From Streptomyces viridosporus (GTDB taxonomy: Bacteria; Actinomycetota; Actinomycetes; Streptomycetales; Streptomycetaceae), in NCBI RefSeq assembly GCF_002078235.1, contig NZ_MSGP01000229.1, positions 1-33,140 on the forward strand: a stretch of 33,140 bases of DNA, in the 5' to 3' direction. The notes below the pieces were generated by a model that did no database searches, was not told the DNA's origin, and saw only the letters and a list, made by a program, of their open reading frames with translations. Numbering within the stretch: the first letter of the stretch is position 1; each line of letters begins with the position of its first letter. The translations under genes and the position numbers were made by a program. Below are positions 18,714 through 30,914 of this stretch, one piece after another.

Positions 18714-18959
18714 ATGCACATCGAAACGTTCCCGTCGCCCGATCTCACCTGGCAGGAGGAGGCGCTGTGTGCGCAGACCGGGGGAGACTTCTTCTTCCCC
18801 GAGCCGGGCAGCTCGGTCCGTGAGGCCAAGCGGATCTGCGGTCTCTGCCCCATCCGCGCCGCCTGCCTCGACTACGCCATGGCCCACGACATGCGCTTCG
18901 GCGTCTGGGGCGGACTCTCGGAGAAGGAGCGGCTGGAGCTGCGGCGGGCGAGCCGTTAG
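18714..18959 (+). CDS. WhiB-family iron-sulfur regulator
   Basis: The 81-residue protein has the four cysteines that hold the [4Fe-4S] cluster: Cys19, Cys42, Cys45 and Cys51 (C-x22-C-x2-C-x5-C), followed by GVWGGLSEKERLELRR, the turn and basic tail of the family. WhiB proteins bind the principal sigma factor and alter promoter choice. It lacks the AT-hook (RGRP-like) of WhiB7/WblC. The paralogue cannot be named from sequence alone. ATG 18714 has no clear Shine-Dalgarno; an in-frame TTG lies at 18675, so the start is somewhat uncertain. It is isolated by gaps on both sides. Confidence 0.92.
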   Translation: MHIETFPSPDLTWQEEALCAQTGGDFFFPEPGSSVREAKRICGLCPIRAACLDYAMAHDMRFGVWGGLSEKERLELRRASR

Positions 18960-18999: not shown

Positions 19000-19037
19000 T
19001 TGACCTTCGAGTGGGTCGAAGCCCGACGATGGCCGGG
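19000..19037 (+). promoter_or_regulatory. MerR-type promoter with dyad in a 19-bp spacer, leaderless start
   Basis: TTGACC (19000-19005) and GACGAT (19025-19030) are separated by 19 bases, the over-long spacer seen at MerR-activated promoters. Within it CTTCGA-N5-TCGAAG (19005-19021) is a perfect dyad. The expected start site, 7 bases after the -10 box, is base 19037, which is also the G of the GTG start codon, so the mRNA would be leaderless. The combination strongly suggests autoregulation. Confidence 0.7.
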
Positions 19038-20107
19038 TGCCGAACTCCGAACTGATGCCGATCGGGGTCTTCGCCCGACGCACCGGGCTGACCCCGAGCG
19101 CCCTGCGCTTCTACGCCGACTCCGGGCTGCTTCCTCCTGCTGAGGTCGACCCGGCCTCCGGCTACCGCTACTACGGTGCTGACCAGGTGGCACGGGCCAC
19201 CGCGCTGCGTCGGCTCCGTGAGATCGCCATGCCCCTCACCGCTGCCCGAGCCGTCCTCGACGCCGGGCCCGACGAAGCGTCCCGGCTGATCGACGAGCAC
19301 GTCGCGAAGGTGCTCGGGGACGCGGCAGCGGTGCAGCGGAAAGCCGCTTCGATCAAGTCGTCGCTTGCCGACGTGCCGAGTCTGCCGGTTGCCGCGCTGA
19401 AGGGGCCCGTGCTGGCTGACGCGATCGAGCAGGTCCTGGCCGCGGCCGTGCGCGAACCCGGTATGCCGGTACTCGGGGCCCTGCGTGTCGAGGCGACGCA
19501 GGAGGCGGTCACCTTGACCGCCACCGACCGTTACCGTCTCTCGACCCGGACCCTGGTTCCCGCCGAAGCCGGGGCCACGGCCTGGGCTGCCACGGTCAGT
19601 GGTGACGAGTTGCGGGCAGCGGTCGCCGACATCCGCCGCAGCGCGCTGGTGCGGGTCGAGGCGACGCCGCACGGGTGCCGGCTGCGCATGGCGGACCGAG
19701 AAGACCGGTACTGCCGGCTGCTGTCGGAGGAGTTTCCCGATCACAGGTCGATGCTCGGCTCGCTGCCCGAGGTCACGACCCGGGTGACGGTCGCGAAGGG
19801 TCTCCTCCGGCGAGCTCTGGAGGAGACCCCGGGAGAGCGGGTCACGCTGCGTGCGACCCGCCGGGGCCTGAACGTCCTGACGACCGATGACGAGCACCCC
19901 GGTGTCCCGCTCACGGCCACCGTGACGGGGCGGGATCTCCGGATCTCCTTCGAGCTGACCACGCTCTACCCGGCCGTCAGCACCGCCATCGGCCCCGACG
20001 TGATGCTCGACCTGAGGGGCCCGGAGCAGCCTGCCACGATCCGCTCCGCCGACCGCGGCGATCTCACCACCCTGGCCATGCCCGTCCGATCCGACCACTC
20101 CGCCTGA
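19037..20107 (+). CDS. MerR-family HTH fused to DNA polymerase III sliding clamp domains 2 and 3
   Basis: The 356-residue protein has a MerR winged helix at 7-75 (MPIGVFARRTGLTPSALRFY, SGYRYYGADQVARATALRRL) and a dimerisation-helix region at about 78-112. From about 116 it resembles DnaN: domain 2 has ALKGPVLADAIEQVLAAA, MPVLGALRVEA, ATDRYRLSTR (162-171) and EEFPDHRSML (231-240); domain 3 (about 241-352) ends GPEQPATIRSADRGDLTTLAMPVR. DnaN domain 1 is missing. Thr163, Leu168 and the MPVR end match positions that build the clamp's peptide-binding pocket in E. coli (Thr172, Leu177, Met362-Pro363-Arg365). The usual MerR metal cysteines are absent. GTG 19037 is supported by the leaderless promoter; ATG 19055 is the alternative. 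A TPR gene follows after 34 bases. Annotated proteins of this type exist, but I know of no defined function. Confidence 0.88.
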   Translation: MPNSELMPIGVFARRTGLTPSALRFYADSGLLPPAEVDPASGYRYYGADQVARATALRRLREIAMPLTAARAVLDAGPDEASRLIDEHVAKVLGDAAAVQRKAASIKSSLADVPSLPVAALKGPVLADAIEQVLAAAVREPGMPVLGALRVEATQEAVTLTATDRYRLSTRTLVPAEAGATAWAATVSGDELRAAVADIRRSALVRVEATPHGCRLRMADREDRYCRLLSEEFPDHRSMLGSLPEVTTRVTVAKGLLRRALEETPGERVTLRATRRGLNVLTTDDEHPGVPLTATVTGRDLRISFELTTLYPAVSTAIGPDVMLDLRGPEQPATIRSADRGDLTTLAMPVRSDHSA

Positions 20108-20141
20108 GCGAGAACGACCGAGAACGACGAGGAGCACTCCT

Positions 20142-20651
20142 GTGACCACCACTCCCACCAGCCCCGACCCGACCATGGAAGCCATCGGCCAAGCCGTCGT
20201 CGAAGGACGATCCGGCGGCATCGCTCCGGCCCGCCGGAAGCTGCTGGCCCTGTGGTCGACGATCGGTGTCACCGGCGACCCGCTGCACCGCTGCACTCTC
20301 GCGCACTACCTGGCAGACCTCTACGAGGACCCCGCCCGGGCCCTGGCCTGGAACATCCGTGCCCTGGACGCCGCCGACGCCGTGACCGAGCAGCGCGTTC
20401 GGGAGCATCACGCCGGTCTCCACATCGCCGGCTTCTACCCGTCCCTGCACCTCAACCTCGCCGACGACTACCGCCGACTCGGTTCCTTCGATGCCGCCAC
20501 CGAGCACATGAACAAGGCCAGGGAGCACGCCCCCGACCTCCCCCAGGACGCCTACGGCGCCTTTCTGCGTACCGCCCTCGACGAGGTGGCGGAGGCCATC
20601 TCCCGGCGGGACACCGCCCAGCGGGCCTCCGCCCCGGGGCCCGCCGCGTGA
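20142..20651 (+). CDS. Small TPR-like protein linked to the MerR-clamp gene
   Basis: The 169-residue protein is helical and soluble, without signal or membrane segment. At least one tetratricopeptide unit is clear (about 101-131, LHLNLADDYRRLGSFDAATEHMNKAREHAP), with weaker units at about 48-78 (HRCTLAHYLADLYEDPARALAWNIRALDAAD). The tail is Ala/Pro-rich. GTG 20142 follows GAGGAG at 7 bases. It is 34 bases behind the MerR-clamp gene on the same strand and likely shares its promoter. Its function is unknown; TPRs usually bind proteins. Confidence 0.78.
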   Translation: MTTTPTSPDPTMEAIGQAVVEGRSGGIAPARRKLLALWSTIGVTGDPLHRCTLAHYLADLYEDPARALAWNIRALDAADAVTEQRVREHHAGLHIAGFYPSLHLNLADDYRRLGSFDAATEHMNKAREHAPDLPQDAYGAFLRTALDEVAEAISRRDTAQRASAPGPAA

Positions 20652-20864: not shown

Positions 20865-21839
20865 TCAGTGGGCCGCGCGCGCCGCCATCCGGGCCTTGCG
20901 GGCCGCCAGCTTCTCGTCGAACTTCTGCGCCTCCGCGTCCAGGCCGCCCAGGAACACGCCGAGCTCCTCCTGGGCCTTGCGGCCCTCGGGGCCGAGGCCG
21001 TCGATGTCCATGACCCTCAGGAAGCGGAGCACCGGCTGGAGCACGTCGTCGTGGTGGATGCGCAGGTTGTAGACCTCGCCGATGGCCATCTGCGCGGCGG
21101 CCCGCTCGAAGCCGGGGATGCTGTGGCCGGGCATCCGGAAGTTCACGACGACGTCGCGCACCGCCTGCATCGTCAGGTCGGGGGCGATCTCAAAGGCCGC
21201 CTTCAGGAGGTTGCGGTAGAAGACCATGTGCAGGTTCTCGTCGGTCGCGATGCGGGCCAGCATGCGGTCGCAGACCGGGTCGCCGGACTGGTGGCCGGTG
21301 TTGCGGTGCGAGATGCGGGTGGCCAGCTCCTGGAAGGCGACGTAGGCCACCGAGTGCAGCATCGAGTGCCGGTTGTCCGACTCGAAGCCCTCGCTCATGT
21401 GCGCCATGCGGAACTGCTCCAGCTTGTCCGGGTCCACCGCCCGCGAGGCGAGCAGGTAGTCCCGCATCACGATGCCGTGCCGGCCCTCCTCGGCCGTCCA
21501 GCGGTGCACCCAGGTGCCCCAGGCGCCGTCCCGGCCGAACAGGGTGGCGATCTCGTGGTGGTAGCTCGGGAGGTTGTCCTCGGTCAGCAGGTTCACCACG
21601 AGGGCGATCCGGCCGACCTCGGTGACCTTGGACTGCTCCTTGTCCCAGGCCTCGCCGTCCTCGAAGAGACCGGGGAAGTTGCGGCCGTCGCTCCACGGAA
21701 CGTACTCGTGCGGCATCCAGTCCTTGGCGACCTTCAGATGCCGGTTGAGTTCCTTCTCGACCACTTCCTCCAGCGCGTACAACAGCCGGGCGTCGGTCCA
21801 GACGGACGGGCTGCCGAGATGAGGGGAAGTGAGCGTCAC
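20865..21839 (-). CDS. Soluble acyl-ACP desaturase (DesA-type)
   Basis: The 324-residue protein is a di-iron acyl-ACP desaturase. Iron ligands are Glu87 (LLTEDNLPSYH), the EEGRH motif (117-121), Glu171 (FQELAT) and DENLH (200-204). It would introduce a double bond into acyl chains bound to ACP using O2 and ferredoxin. Bacterial members occur mainly in actinobacteria. GTG 21839 is preceded by GGAG at 6 bases; the frame is open far upstream, but that sequence belongs to the operator region and to dimethylargininase in another frame. Three operator repeats lie 55 bases upstream, so expression is probably controlled by a TetR-like regulator, which is not encoded nearby. Confidence 0.93.
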   Translation of the reverse strand: MTLTSPHLGSPSVWTDARLLYALEEVVEKELNRHLKVAKDWMPHEYVPWSDGRNFPGLFEDGEAWDKEQSKVTEVGRIALVVNLLTEDNLPSYHHEIATLFGRDGAWGTWVHRWTAEEGRHGIVMRDYLLASRAVDPDKLEQFRMAHMSEGFESDNRHSMLHSVAYVAFQELATRISHRNTGHQSGDPVCDRMLARIATDENLHMVFYRNLLKAAFEIAPDLTMQAVRDVVVNFRMPGHSIPGFERAAAQMAIGEVYNLRIHHDDVLQPVLRFLRVMDIDGLGPEGRKAQEELGVFLGGLDAEAQKFDEKLAARKARMAARAAH

Positions 21840-23041: not shown

Positions 23042-25312
23042 TCACCGCCCCCGCACCGCCCGCCGCAGATGCTCCCCGGTGAAGGACCCCCGGGCCGCCA
23101 GCAGTTGCTCCGGCGTCCCCTCGAAGACCACCCGGCCGCCGTCCCGTCCGCCGTCCGGGCCGAGGTCGATCACCCAGTCGGCGCGGGCGATCACGTCCAG
23201 GTGGTGCTCGACCACGACGACGGTGTTGCCCGCGTCCACGAGCCGGTCCAGAAGGGTGACGAGGCCGTCCACGTCGGCCAGGTGCAGCCCGGTGGTCGGC
23301 TCGTCCAGGACGTACACCACCCCCTTGCGGTGCAGCCGGGTGGCGAGCTTGATGCGCTGCCGTTCGCCGCCGGACAGCGTGGACAGCGGCTGCCCGAGGG
23401 TGAGGTAGGTCAGGCCGACGTCCCGCAGGGCGCGCAGCCGGCGCCGCACGCCCGGGTCGTCGAAGAAGTCCAGCGCCTCGTCGGCCGTCATGCCCAGGGC
23501 GTCGGCGATGGAGCGGCCGCCGACCGTCAGCCGCAGCACCTCCTCCTTGAAGCGCCGGCCCTCGCAGTCGTGGCAGGTCGTGGTCACCGGGTCCATGAAG
23601 GCGAGGTCGGTGTGGATGATCCCGCGGCCCTCGCAGGTCGCGCAGGCACCGGCGGAGTTGAAGCTGAACAGTCCCGGTTCCCGCCCCGTCTCCCGCGCGA
23701 AGACCTTCCGCACCGTGTCCATGATCCCGAGGTACGTCGCCGGGGTGGACCGCGCGGAGATCCCGATGGACGACTGGTCGACGACCACCGCGTCGGCGTG
23801 GGCGGCGGTGAACTCCGCGACCAGCGTGCTCTTGCCGGACCCGGCGACCCCGGTCACCGCGGTCAGCACCCCGGCCGGGAACCGCACGGTGACCTCGCGC
23901 AGGTTGTGCCGGTCGGCGCCCTTCACCCACAGCTCGCCGGCCGCCTCCCGTACGACGTCCTTGACCGCCGTGCGCCGGCCCAGGCACCGCCCGGTCAGGG
24001 TGTCCGAGGCGGCCAGCTCGCCCGGCGTCCCCTCGAACACCACGCGACCGCCCCCGGCGCCCGCGCCGGGGCCCATGTCGACGACGTGGTCGGCCAGCGC
24101 GATGACGTCGGGGTCGTGCTCGACGACCAGCACGGTGTTCCCCTTGTCCCGCAGCCGCAGCAGCAGTTCGCCGAGGTGGTGCACGTCGCGCGGGTGCAGT
24201 CCGACGCTGGGTTCGTCGAAGATGTACGTCATCCCGGTCAGGCTGGACCCCAGGTGCCGCACCGTCTTCAGCCGCTGGCCCTCGCCGCCGGAGAGGGTGG
24301 ACGTCTCCCGGTCGAGGCTGAGGTAGCCGAGGCCGATCGTCTCGATCCGCTCCAGCGCGGCGACGGCGGCCCCGGCGATCGGCCGGGCGAGGGGGTCGTC
24401 GAGCTCCCGCAGCACGGCGATGAGGTCGGTGACCTGCATCCGGGTGCAGTCGGCGATGGACAGCCCGCCCACGCGCGTCGCCAGCGCCGCCTCGTTCAGC
24501 CGGGCGCCCCGGCAGTCCGGGCAGGTGCCCTCGGCCAGGAACTCCCGCACCAGGTCGCGGGTCTTCTGGCTCATCGCCGCCAGGTCCCGCTTCAGGTAGA
24601 GCCGTTCGAACCGGTCGGCGAGCCCTTCGTACTCGGTGGTCCAGGTGCCGCCCGTGCCGTTCACGGTGACCTTGCTGCCGGGACGTCCGCGCATCAGGAA
24701 ATCCCGCTCGGCCGCGGTGAACTCGCGCACCGGCCGGTGCGGATCGAGCCCGTCGCTGTTGGTGTACGCCTGCCCCTGCCACGTCCCCGGGGCGAACGGC
24801 GGGAAGCGGACCGCCCCCTCGGCGAGGGAGCGGTCCACGTCGAGGATGCGGTCCCAGTCCGGCCGTACGGTCCGGCCCAGGCCGTCGCACCCGGGGCACA
24901 TGCCCGACGGGTCGTTGAACGAGTACGCCGTCGCCGGCCCGGCGCTCGGCGTGCCGTGCCGGGAGAACAGCACCCGGATCACCGCGTACACGTCCGTCAT
25001 CGTGCCGACCGTCGACCGGGAGTGGCCGCCGACGGGCCGCTGGTCGACGACGATCGCGGGGGTGAGGTCCTCCAGGGCGTCCGCGTGCGGCCGCTCGTAC
25101 TTGGGCAACCGGTTGCGGACGAACCAGGTGTACGTCTCGTTCAGCTGCCGCTGCGACTCGACCGCGATCGTGTCGAAGACGACCGACGACTTCCCCGATC
25201 CCGAAACGCCGGTGAACACGGTCAACCGGCCCTTCGGGATGCGGAGCGTGACGTCCTTGAGGTTGTTCTCCCTGGCCCCGGTGAGGGTGATGAACGCGCT
25301 GGACTGGCTCAT
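23042..25312 (-). CDS. UvrA-like ABC ATPase of the drug-resistance (DrrC/UvrA2) group
   Basis: The 756-residue protein has two UvrA-type ATPase halves. The first has GVSGSGKSS (about 35), signature LSGGEGQRLK and Walker B YIFDEPSVGLHPRD; the second has GVAGSGKST, LSGGERQRIK and VLDEPTTGLH. Zinc-type pairs are CPGCDGLG, CPDCRGARL, CATCEGRG and CHDCEGRRF. True UvrA is about 950 residues and has a UvrB-binding insertion that is missing here, so canonical excision repair is unlikely. Related proteins such as DrrC of the daunorubicin cluster protect DNA from intercalators. ATG 25312 begins 10 bases after the ABC-F stop, so both are one transcript. Confidence 0.9.
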   Translation of the reverse strand: MSQSSAFITLTGARENNLKDVTLRIPKGRLTVFTGVSGSGKSSVVFDTIAVESQRQLNETYTWFVRNRLPKYERPHADALEDLTPAIVVDQRPVGGHSRSTVGTMTDVYAVIRVLFSRHGTPSAGPATAYSFNDPSGMCPGCDGLGRTVRPDWDRILDVDRSLAEGAVRFPPFAPGTWQGQAYTNSDGLDPHRPVREFTAAERDFLMRGRPGSKVTVNGTGGTWTTEYEGLADRFERLYLKRDLAAMSQKTRDLVREFLAEGTCPDCRGARLNEAALATRVGGLSIADCTRMQVTDLIAVLRELDDPLARPIAGAAVAALERIETIGLGYLSLDRETSTLSGGEGQRLKTVRHLGSSLTGMTYIFDEPSVGLHPRDVHHLGELLLRLRDKGNTVLVVEHDPDVIALADHVVDMGPGAGAGGGRVVFEGTPGELAASDTLTGRCLGRRTAVKDVVREAAGELWVKGADRHNLREVTVRFPAGVLTAVTGVAGSGKSTLVAEFTAAHADAVVVDQSSIGISARSTPATYLGIMDTVRKVFARETGREPGLFSFNSAGACATCEGRGIIHTDLAFMDPVTTTCHDCEGRRFKEEVLRLTVGGRSIADALGMTADEALDFFDDPGVRRRLRALRDVGLTYLTLGQPLSTLSGGERQRIKLATRLHRKGVVYVLDEPTTGLHLADVDGLVTLLDRLVDAGNTVVVVEHHLDVIARADWVIDLGPDGGRDGGRVVFEGTPEQLLAARGSFTGEHLRRAVRGR

Positions 25313-25322
25313 ACCGCCGACG

Positions 25323-27002
25323 TTAGGCGGGATACCCGACAGCTTCTGTCGTGATTTCCTTCAGCTCTCCCTCCTCCATCAGCAGCCACCGCGTGATCCC
25401 GATCGACTCCAGGAACGGCAGGTCGTGACTGGCGACGATCAGTGCCCCCTCGTACGACTCCAGGGCCGTGGTGAGCTGCCGGGCGCTCGCCATGTCGAGG
25501 TTGTTGGTCGGCTCGTCCAGCATCAGCAGCTGCGGCGCGGGCTCCGCCAGCAGCAGTGCGGCCAGTGCGGCACGGAAGCGCTCGCCGCCGGACAGGGTCG
25601 CCGCCTTCCGGTCGGCGCGGGCGCCCCGGAACAGGAAGCGGGCGAGCCGCGCCCGGATCCGGTTGTCGGTGGCGTCCGGAGCGAACCGGGCCACGTTCTC
25701 GGCGACCGTCAGCCCGTCGTCGAGGACGTCGAGCCGCTGCGGCAGGAACCGCAGCGGGACGTGCGCCGTCGCCTCGCCCGACACCGGCTCGAGCTCCCCG
25801 GCGATCGTGCGCAGCAGCGTGGTCTTGCCGGCACCGTTGCGCCCGACCAGCGCGACCCGCTCCGGTCCCCGCAGGTCGAAGCCGCCGTTCACCCGGGCGC
25901 CGTACGCCAACTCCAGGTCCAGGAGCGTGAGGACGGTACGTCCGGGCGGCACGGCCGTGTACGGCAGGTCGACGCGGATCTCGTCGTCGTCCCGCACGGC
26001 CTCCACCGCCTCGTCGAGCCGTTCCCGGGCCCCGGCGAGCCTCTCCTCGTGCAGGATGCGGTGCTTGCCCGCGGACTCCTGCGCCGCACGCTTGCGCGCC
26101 CCCATGACGATCTTCGGCTCGCGCTTCTGGTCCCACATCCTCTGCCCGTACCGCTTGCGGCGGGCCAGTTTGACCTGGGCGTCGGCCAGCTCGCGCTTCT
26201 GCTTGCGGAAGTCCGCCTCGGCGGCCCGCACCATGCGCTCGGCCGCCTCCTGCTCGACGGCCAGCGCCTCCTCGTAGGCCGAGAAGTTGCCGCCGTACCA
26301 GACGACCTCGCCCACCCGTCCTCCACCACCACCCTCGACCGAGGTGCTGCGCGCCGCCGGGCTCACCCGGCGCAGATCCGCGATCTGGTCGACCAGTTCC
26401 AGCAGTTCACGGTCGTGGCTGACCACGACCATCACGCCCGGCCAGTCCGCGACGGCCGTGTACAGCCGCCTGCGGGCGTACAGGTCGAGGTTGTTGGTGG
26501 GTTCGTCGAGCAGCAGCACGTCCGGCCGGCGCAGCAGCAGCGCGGCCAGCCGCAGCAGCACCGACTCGCCGCCCGACACCTCGCCGACCGTGCGGTCCAA
26601 TCCGATGTGCCCGAGGCCGAGTTCACCGAGCGTGGCCAGGGCGCGCTCCTCCACGTCCCAGTCGTCGCCGACGGTCTCGAAGTGCTCCTCGGCCACGTCG
26701 CCCGCCTCGATGGCGTGCAGCGCGGCCCGCCGTGCGGCGATACCGAGCGCCTCGTCGACCCGGAGCGCGGTGTCCAGCGTCACGTTCTGCGGCAGGTACC
26801 CCACCTCGCCGGCCACCCGGACGGCGCCGCCGGTCGGCGTGAGCTCACCGGCGATCAGCTTCAGCAGGGTCGACTTCCCCGCGCCGTTGACACCGATCAG
26901 CCCGGTACGGCCGGGACCGAAGGAGACGTCGAGGCCCTCGATGACGGGGGTGCCGTCGGGCCAGGTGAAGGAGAGGGACGTACAGGTGATGGATGGTGAC
27001 AT
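25323..27002 (-). CDS. ABC-F ribosome protection-type ATPase
   Basis: The 559-residue protein has two ABC domains and no membrane segments. Domain 1: GVNGAGKST (about 37-45), VSGGESVLLRLAALLL, LLLDEPTNNLD. Domain 2: GRNGAGKTT, LSGGERFRAALAALLL, LMLDEPTNNLD. The linker between them is long and charged (AYEEALAVEQEAAERMVRAAEADFRKQKREL and onward), the part that reaches into the ribosome in antibiotic-resistance ABC-F proteins. A role in protection from ribosome-targeting antibiotics is likely; the drug class cannot be read. ATG 27002 has GGAGG at 5 bases. It is preceded by a strong promoter and a leader of about 230 nt, and followed by the UvrA-like gene. Confidence 0.9.
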   Translation of the reverse strand: MSPSITCTSLSFTWPDGTPVIEGLDVSFGPGRTGLIGVNGAGKSTLLKLIAGELTPTGGAVRVAGEVGYLPQNVTLDTALRVDEALGIAARRAALHAIEAGDVAEEHFETVGDDWDVEERALATLGELGLGHIGLDRTVGEVSGGESVLLRLAALLLRRPDVLLLDEPTNNLDLYARRRLYTAVADWPGVMVVVSHDRELLELVDQIADLRRVSPAARSTSVEGGGGGRVGEVVWYGGNFSAYEEALAVEQEAAERMVRAAEADFRKQKRELADAQVKLARRKRYGQRMWDQKREPKIVMGARKRAAQESAGKHRILHEERLAGARERLDEAVEAVRDDDEIRVDLPYTAVPPGRTVLTLLDLELAYGARVNGGFDLRGPERVALVGRNGAGKTTLLRTIAGELEPVSGEATAHVPLRFLPQRLDVLDDGLTVAENVARFAPDATDNRIRARLARFLFRGARADRKAATLSGGERFRAALAALLLAEPAPQLLMLDEPTNNLDMASARQLTTALESYEGALIVASHDLPFLESIGITRWLLMEEGELKEITTEAVGYPA

Positions 27003-30206: not shown

Positions 30207-30222
30207 TAGGCTCGGGGCACCA
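30207..30222 (+). promoter_or_regulatory. -10 box of a likely leaderless endonuclease V transcript
   Basis: TAGGCT (30207-30212) ends 9 bases before the ATG at 30222, which has no Shine-Dalgarno. This is the usual look of leaderless Streptomyces genes. The -35 region is not clear. Confidence 0.5.
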
Positions 30223-30914
30223 TGACGACCGTACGCACACCGGCCGACTGGCCCGGGACCGAGGAGCAGGCCCGCGCCGTCCAGGACGCACTCCGTGCGC
30301 GGGTGGTGCTCGACGAGCCGGGCCCACCGCCCGGGACGGGCCGGGTCACCGGGGTCGACGTGGCGTACGACGACGAGCGGGACGTCGTCGCGGCGGCGGC
30401 GGTCGTCCTGGACGCGGCGAGCCTCGACGTCGTCGCCGAGGCCACGGCCGTCGGCCGGATCTCCTTCCCGTACGTGCCCGGGCTGCTCGCCTTCCGCGAG
30501 CTCCCCACCGTCCTCGCCGCCCTCGACGCCCTGCCCTGCCCGCCCGGCCTGGTGGTCTGCGACGGTTACGGCCGCGCGCATCCCCGCCGCTTCGGCCTCG
30601 CCAGTCACCTCGGCGTCCTCACCGGCCTGCCGACGATCGGCGTCGCCAAGAACCCCTTCACCTTCGCCCACGACACCCCGGACACCCCGCGCGGCAGCAC
30701 GGCACCGCTGCTCGACGGCCGCGAGGAGGTCGGCCGCGCCCTGCGCACGAGGGACGCGGTCAAGCCGGTCTTCGTCTCGGTCGGCCATCGGACGAGCCTC
30801 GACAACGCCTGCGCCCACACCCTCGCGCTGACCCCCGCCCACCGCCTCCCGGAGACCACCCGCAGGGCGGACGCCCTGTGCCGCAGGGCGCTCCGCGAGG
30901 CGGCCGGGGCCTGA
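30222..30914 (+). CDS. nfi: Endonuclease V (deoxyinosine 3'-endonuclease)
   Basis: The 230-residue protein has the endonuclease V motifs in order: GVDVAY with metal-binding Asp46, FPYVPGLLAFRE with Tyr84 and Glu93, VVCDGYGRAHPRRFGLASHLGV with Asp114, PTIGVAKNPF, and VFVSVGHRTSLDNA. The enzyme cuts the second bond 3' to deoxyinosine in deaminated DNA. Length is typical (about 225). ATG 30222 is supported by a -10 box 9 bases upstream that fits a leaderless mRNA. It stands alone, 34 bases from the convergent 70-residue gene. Confidence 0.95.
   Translation: MTTVRTPADWPGTEEQARAVQDALRARVVLDEPGPPPGTGRVTGVDVAYDDERDVVAAAAVVLDAASLDVVAEATAVGRISFPYVPGLLAFRELPTVLAALDALPCPPGLVVCDGYGRAHPRRFGLASHLGVLTGLPTIGVAKNPFTFAHDTPDTPRGSTAPLLDGREEVGRALRTRDAVKPVFVSVGHRTSLDNACAHTLALTPAHRLPETTRRADALCRRALREAAGA

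Follow-up and report, generated by a model that had tools for sequence, protein, structure and literature searches.

Why should a transcription regulator carry two domains of the sliding clamp of DNA replication, and what might it do with them? The question is raised by a gene in a stretch of 33,140 nucleotides from Streptomyces viridosporus (assembly GCF_002078235.1, contig NZ_MSGP01000229.1, positions 1 to 33,140; hereafter the window), whose product joins a MerR-type DNA-binding domain to domains 2 and 3 of the clamp protein DnaN. We address it here from the architecture of the protein, the conservation of its clamp pocket, its promoter, its gene-neighborhoods and its relatives in other genomes.

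Domain architecture and loss of the ring interface

The gene (19037..20107, forward strand, as are all features of the unit) starts with GTG and codes for a protein of 356 residues, delineated by its ORF, Pfam and NCBIfam matches, a predicted model and a structure match. Its N-terminal residues 6-75 (19052..19261) form a MerR winged helix-turn-helix, recovered by the Pfam MerR_1 profile at residues 7-76 (e-value = 7.7e-15; 55.2 bits against a cut-off of 21.6). In the AlphaFold model (m01cc26435066; pLDDT 88) the MerR part begins at residue 6 and is followed by a long helix of residues 78-110 (19268..19366), predicted to be the usual MerR dimerization coil, and by clamp-like elements that extend to residue 347. 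DnaN domain 2 (approximately residues 116-235; 19382..19741; Pfam, model and alignment) is matched by DNA_pol3_beta_2 at residues 121-235 above the cut-off (e-value = 1.5e-7), and domain 3 (approximately residues 236-351; 19742..20089; model and alignment) gives a Pfam match under the cut-off for the window protein (0.002). The NCBIfam profile TIGR00663 for DnaN aligns its positions 128-366 of 367 with residues 120-351 (e-value = 7.8e-12), with a whole-protein score of 44.8 bits that lies below the cut-off of 137.65 for a three-domain clamp. A weak Pfam match to domain 1 (1.5e-4, below cut-off) falls on residues 125-207 and thus coincides with domain 2, so that no separate domain 1 is seen. 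The best chain recovered by sequence is the DnaN of M. smegmatis (5.5e-11), and the clamp part superimposes on a mycobacterial DnaN structure with a VIA Z of 27.9 and an rmsd of 2.0 across 240 residues. The initial annotation had described a MerR helix-turn-helix joined to two DnaN-like domains, with domain 1 lost; Pfam, TIGR00663 and the clamp-like fold of the model bear this out, and the ORF starts and ends where it had been placed.

Searches of genome contigs recovered 56 relatives of this protein, mostly from Streptomyces. Given these relatives and a dN/dS of 0.27-0.45 (8 pairs tried), the gene is a real one. A FastTree phylogeny of 54 chosen sequences resolved three clades, A (support 0.987), to which the window's protein belongs, B (0.992) and C (1.0), with one sequence, L212, left unplaced at 0.62.

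We then aligned 62 relatives (47 of clade A, 7 of clade B and 8 of clade C) with the DnaN proteins of E. coli and of the host itself. The columns of E. coli DnaN residues 270-275 are gaps in 47/47 clade A and 7/7 clade B sequences, as are those of residues 273-275 in all eight from clade C. These columns include I272 and L273, which are given as dimer-interface residues of the E. coli clamp in the available part of one study (PMC11139829); these residues of the ring-closing interface are hence deleted from domain 3 in 54/54 sequences of clades A and B. Since domain 1 is absent and these residues are gone, it is unlikely that the regulator forms a ring, and the earlier suggestion that it might bind DNA as one falls away.

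Selective retention of the clamp pocket

The residues lining the two subsites of the clamp pocket, to which the binding motifs of clamp ligands dock, were taken from the same partial source (PMC11139829). The core of subsite I comprises eight positions, namely L155, T172, H175, L177, P242, V247, V360 and M362 of E. coli DnaN, which correspond to L146, T163, Y166, L168 and P234 in domain 2 and M239, L346 and M348 in domain 3 of the window's protein. At these positions the retention of residues like those of the host DnaN is 1.00 in all clades, compared with 0.39 over 214 columns outside the pocket (p = 6e-6). Similarly, among 55 columns identical in the E. coli and host DnaN proteins, the 8 belonging to the pocket show a retention of 0.86, compared with 0.32 for the other 47 (p = 1.5e-4); both p values serve as a guide only, because the statistics treat alignment columns rather than lineages as independent and the sequences are related. 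Broken or partial copies (L054, L056, L059, L063, L064 and others) were left out of these tables, and L070 was used only behind an apparent frame change. Among 47 close relatives T163, D164, R165, R167, L168, M348 and P349 are invariant, and position 166 is a tyrosine in 46/47.

The retention of subsite II does not differ from the background (p = 0.26). Compared with the host DnaN, its consensus is kept at 2/6 positions in clade A, 3/6 in clade B and 6/6 in clade C, with the changes in clade A including N320 to glutamate or others, Y/F323 to threonine and V/T344 to aspartate. Thus, hydrophobic subsite I has been conserved far more strongly than the remainder of the domain, and subsite II is kept only in the sister clade C and is remodelled in that of the window. 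The view that the pocket residues are preserved accordingly stands for subsite I, the TDRYRL motif and the MP of the terminal MPVR; it does not stand for subsite II in the window's clade or for the last arginine of MPVR, which is a lysine in 23/47 and an arginine in just 5/47 close relatives. Because subsite II, the seat of the glutamine of the clamp motif, is changed, the ligand of the window's clade may also have changed: it need not resemble griselimycin, and ordinary clamp ligands perhaps do not bind at all.

These patterns also bear on a highly improbable reading, that the two DnaN domains bind no ligand and serve simply as a scaffold or dimer prop, or that they tether the regulator to the replisome. 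In its favor, half or more of the DnaN residues have drifted, and subsite II and the ring interface are lost. Against it stand the almost perfect retention of subsite I amid this drift and an internal start predicted in clade C (see below), from which the clamp domains would be produced free of the DNA-binding part.

The promoter and its single operator

The regulator gene is preceded by a -35 hexamer TTGACC (19000..19005) and a -10 hexamer GACGAT (19025..19030) separated by a 19-bp spacer, within which a dyad, CTTCGA-GTGGG-TCGAAG (19005..19021), is the predicted MerR operator on the basis of its sequence and conservation. The operator was found at up to 2 mismatches in 52 of 57 loci (the window and its 56 relatives), and in those 52 both TTGACCTTC and the -35 hexamer are invariant. 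The second and fifth positions of the -10 hexamer are A in 52/52 and the sixth is T in 51/52, which supports the earlier proposal of a promoter at 19000-19037. The start codon lies 37 nt past the first T of TTGACC in 48/52 loci, and since it is only 6 nt from the -10 hexamer in the window, the transcript is probably leaderless or nearly so. The same operator, in some cases with more mismatches, precedes relatives in Rhodococcus, Nocardia, Stackebrandtia, Amycolatopsis and Antrihabitans.

A search of the host's own genome recovered one exact match to the operator, the site in the window, along with three others that have 2 mismatches, and no match to the reversed control; a wide regulon was accordingly rejected. 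Across 246 Streptomyces genomes, 76 have the operator at up to 1 mismatch, against 4 with a match to the reversed control. When 30 operator loci were read, 15 carried exact sites, 13 of them before a MerR-DnaN gene, one before a fragment (L096) and one before nothing (L099). One-mismatch sites such as TTGACCGTCGAGGAGTTCGAAG recur without a nearby MerR-DnaN gene (13/30 loci read). Because the exact sites almost all precede MerR-DnaN genes, the operator appears to have few targets beyond this gene, and the unit appears to control only itself. With a single operator, at its own promoter, the regulator may control its own transcription as regulators of the TipA class do.

A TPR protein or a predicted internal start as the source of a second product

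Behind the regulator, after 34 nt, lies a second gene (20142..20651) with its own ribosome-binding site, GAGGAG (20129..20134), which codes for a protein of 169 residues, defined by conservation and by a model (pLDDT 90.4) with eight helices in a TPR fold. A fold search returned generic TPR neighbors only, with Z up to 15.8, a range common for helical repeats. The protein resembles no known resistance protein and has a conserved, disordered tail that mostly ends in R-x-S-A-P-G-P, with low pLDDT at its C-terminal end.

The TPR gene follows the regulator in 52 of the 56 loci searched (short or broken matches in L022, L041 and L063), and was found in none of L027, L051, L053 and L064. An independent sample of the class recovered it in 16/18 clade A and B loci, the window's own included, one of them with just 39 matching residues. 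Distances between the regulators agree with those between their TPR partners (Mantel r 0.89; 30 loci). The survey of neighbors in other genomes thus delimits a two-gene unit: a wider conserved neighborhood was rejected, as the WhiB-like gene and the ORF at 20868 that flank the unit recur in 1/56 loci only. The WhiB-like regulator lies directly upstream (18714-18959, forward strand; Pfam 1.5e-23) and is not conserved with the unit. Elsewhere the window holds two adjoining ABC-type ATPase genes (23042-27002, reverse strand), matched by Pfam ABC_tran only and by eye UvrA-like and ABC-F-like, respectively, and an Endonuclease V gene (30222-30914, forward strand; Pfam 7.3e-68). In one locus (L063:7853-8561) the clamp part has been lost and the TPR gene begins almost directly behind the MerR part.

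Clade C, to which 17 of the 54 tree sequences belong, differs in several respects. Its operator, TTGACCCTCGAC-N3-GTCGAGG, is distinct from that of the window's clade; five of seven clade C genomes have a single such operator, immediately before the clade C gene, and two have none at 1 mismatch. In the class sample no TPR gene was found behind the clade C regulator (0/11 loci). Instead, 16 of 19 clade C loci have a predicted internal start, with GGGAG, AGGAG or a similar sequence followed by ATG or GTG, near residue 118 in the stretch that separates the coil from domain 2. Such a start is absent from the other three clade C loci, is present in 1/52 clade A and 1/12 clade B loci, and was looked for in the window's own gene and not found there. 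The internal site opens on an arginine codon in 13 clade C loci (AGG in 11), and AGG makes up 31 of the 753 arginine codons of these genes. Judged from these signals, translation from the internal start would yield a free clamp part, much as TipAS is made from TipA. Because clade A has the TPR gene and clade C the internal start, the two branches both seem to need a second product and to obtain it differently.

Spread of the unit

The MerR-DnaN unit is an accessory element that moves horizontally. Counting its own genome, the regulator was recovered in 17/61 near genomes (threshold 1e-20) and in 31 of 394 genomes of the class, belonging to 14 of 137 genera (threshold 1e-30), and broken copies are frequent. 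Linear plasmids carry the unit: 23 plasmid records match, 8 of which cover at least 80% of the protein, and two at 68-69% identity have a TPR-sized gene behind the regulator. On the linear plasmid pADI95-16b (L085) the unit, 69% identical to that of the window, lies a few kb from genes annotated as Ku and dnaE. Streptomyces muensis has two copies in different places (L011 and L026), 81% and 72% identical to the window's. A phage origin was rejected, as the 8 phage records that match do so over the MerR part only.

The TPR family and DNA repair genes

Relatives of the TPR protein are far more widespread than the unit, being present in 231 of 246 Streptomyces genomes, mostly unpaired with a regulator of this kind. 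In 16 of 20 loci chosen from this list the TPR gene lies directly behind ung on the same strand, and in the class sample the same order is seen in 24/29 loci, which are all 24 of the Streptomyces ones (41-435 nt between the matches); the other five comprise two MerR-DnaN units and three loci from other genera. The identity of ung was confirmed by NCBIfam. The arrangement is found in the host's own genome (L149:8733-10070; G000:C13) as well as in 40 other Streptomyces loci, and many of these ung-linked relatives end in a conserved GPPRQRP tail. Further TPR relatives lie immediately before the error-prone polymerase gene dnaE2 in 3/4 genomes of one genus of a single family, f6 (L267:3907-7960, L270:3908-7794 and L275), convergent to ligA in two loci, or next to a UvrD/PcrA-like helicase gene. 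A constant association with repair genes was rejected outside Streptomyces: of 30 TPR loci read in one family, 15 have unrelated neighbors and 12 are MerR-DnaN units. The link of the TPR family to DNA repair is therefore firm for Streptomyces only, where the partner of the regulator leads to an uncharacterised family of proteins associated with ung in almost every genome sampled.

What does the unit sense?

We propose that the unit is an accessory, autoregulated one-component sensor of a ligand of the clamp pocket, be it an antibiotic or a peptide, laid out like TipA with another receptor, a reading in which we place somewhat better than even confidence. The unit probably senses a clamp binder because the pocket has been kept in a switch that seems to control only itself. 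In the switch that we infer, the MerR part would bind the dyad in its own 19-bp-spacer promoter and the receptor made of DnaN domains 2 and 3 would capture, chiefly via hydrophobic subsite I, a ligand otherwise bound by replication clamps. Binding would twist the promoter in the usual way of MerR proteins, giving more of the regulator and of the second product, which would be the TPR protein in the window's clade and the clamp part released by the internal start in the sister clade. That released part might then sequester the ligand, and the TPR protein might protect a clamp-dependent repair step. As to the ligand, our first guess is a small-molecule or cyclic-peptide inhibitor of the clamp, which is in keeping with the accessory spread, a layout resembling that of TipA and the short form of clade C; the second guess is a protein clamp-binding motif, with which the links of TPR relatives to repair genes agree.

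More tentatively, and as a version of the proposal that we would sooner doubt than assert, the clamp piece could be the receptor of a mobile family of Actinomycetes sensors for natural clamp-targeting compounds, with one branch making clamp decoys and the other a TPR guard of uracil or translesion repair. If so, it would represent a receptor class for antibiotics that hit the clamp, of which, to our knowledge, only the griselimycins and mycoplanecins are known.

It is unlikely, if less so than the other alternatives, that the pocket instead takes the motifs by which repair proteins of the host, or phage inhibitors of the clamp, bind to clamps, the sensor then reporting replication stress, DNA damage or infection and not a drug. 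The placing of TPR relatives beside ung, dnaE2 and ligA, which stand for several clamp-using processes, is consistent with such a role, and phage proteins are known to plug the clamp (Gp168 in 7evp, going by the title of that entry). However, a patchy, mobile unit would be odd for a housekeeping stress sensor, subsite II has been remodelled, and many TPR relatives outside Streptomyces have unrelated neighbors (the 15/30 loci of one family). In PADLOC the regulator gave only a MerR-type match, to mad1, and the TPR protein gave none, which also led us to reject a defence system.

Very doubtful is a paired feedback module, in which the TPR protein would bind the clamp and the clamp mimic of the regulator would be its cognate decoy, sensing free TPR protein in an antitoxin-like manner. 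One would expect of it what is seen in the unit, two genes with the regulator first under one promoter, co-inherited (the Mantel r of 0.89), and a conserved disordered tail on the TPR protein. This tail has, however, no evident clamp motif, the sister clade does without the TPR gene, most of the TPR relatives in the 231 Streptomyces genomes lack such a regulator, and in one genome (G077) just the end of the regulator is left beside the TPR gene (L192).

Should the pocket work as a receptor, as the sensor that we propose would have it, the protein would clearly exemplify how a component essential to replication can be trimmed and given a new task as a sensor, retaining its docking pocket and giving up the ring. 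The sliding clamp is a validated tuberculosis target, and we know of few natural inhibitors of it; such regulators would be ready-made biosensors for compounds of this type, and the spread of their genes would say that clamp-hitting compounds, or proteins acting alike, are common in soil.

Comparison with known systems

The clamp part of the regulator shares the fold of domains 2 and 3 and subsite I with DnaN clamps, and differs from them in being fused to a regulator, in having no domain 1, in the deletion of the interface residues and in scoring under the DnaN cut-off. The available part of one report (PMC10817943) describes GriR and MypR as second clamps in the producers of griselimycin and mycoplanecin, accessory copies that act against clamp antibiotics. 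A search of the host genome with the window protein showed one DnaN locus, and hence no second clamp of this resistance type was seen; no gene cluster for a clamp antibiotic was identified near the unit.

The closest functional parallel is TipA of Streptomyces lividans and relatives, in which, according to the accessible part of a published account (PMC7762955), alternative starts yield a long regulator (TipAL) and a short, receptor-only form (TipAS). TipA likewise combines a MerR DNA-binding part with a C-terminal receptor and is autoregulated, as the MerR-DnaN regulator is predicted to be, and the internal start predicted in clade C sits at the same junction as that of TipAS; the analogy with TipA drawn in the initial annotation gains from this coincidence. 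The receptor, in contrast, consists here of DnaN domains 2 and 3, with no TipAS domain (PF07739) among the Pfam matches up to an E of 1, and the second product in the window's clade comes from a separate TPR gene and not from an internal form, which is absent in 51/52 clade A loci.

BmrR, Mta, CueR and other one-component regulators of the MerR family have a helix-turn-helix, a long helix and a promoter with a 19-bp spacer. The protein studied here has all three, and annotated plasmid records name it simply a MerR family regulator; the literature searched gave no paper on a MerR-DnaN protein by title and abstract. It differs from BmrR, Mta and CueR in its new receptor domain and in having seemingly one target operon per genome. 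We accordingly rate it as a one-component regulator of the MerR family whose receptor domain has not been seen before in that role.
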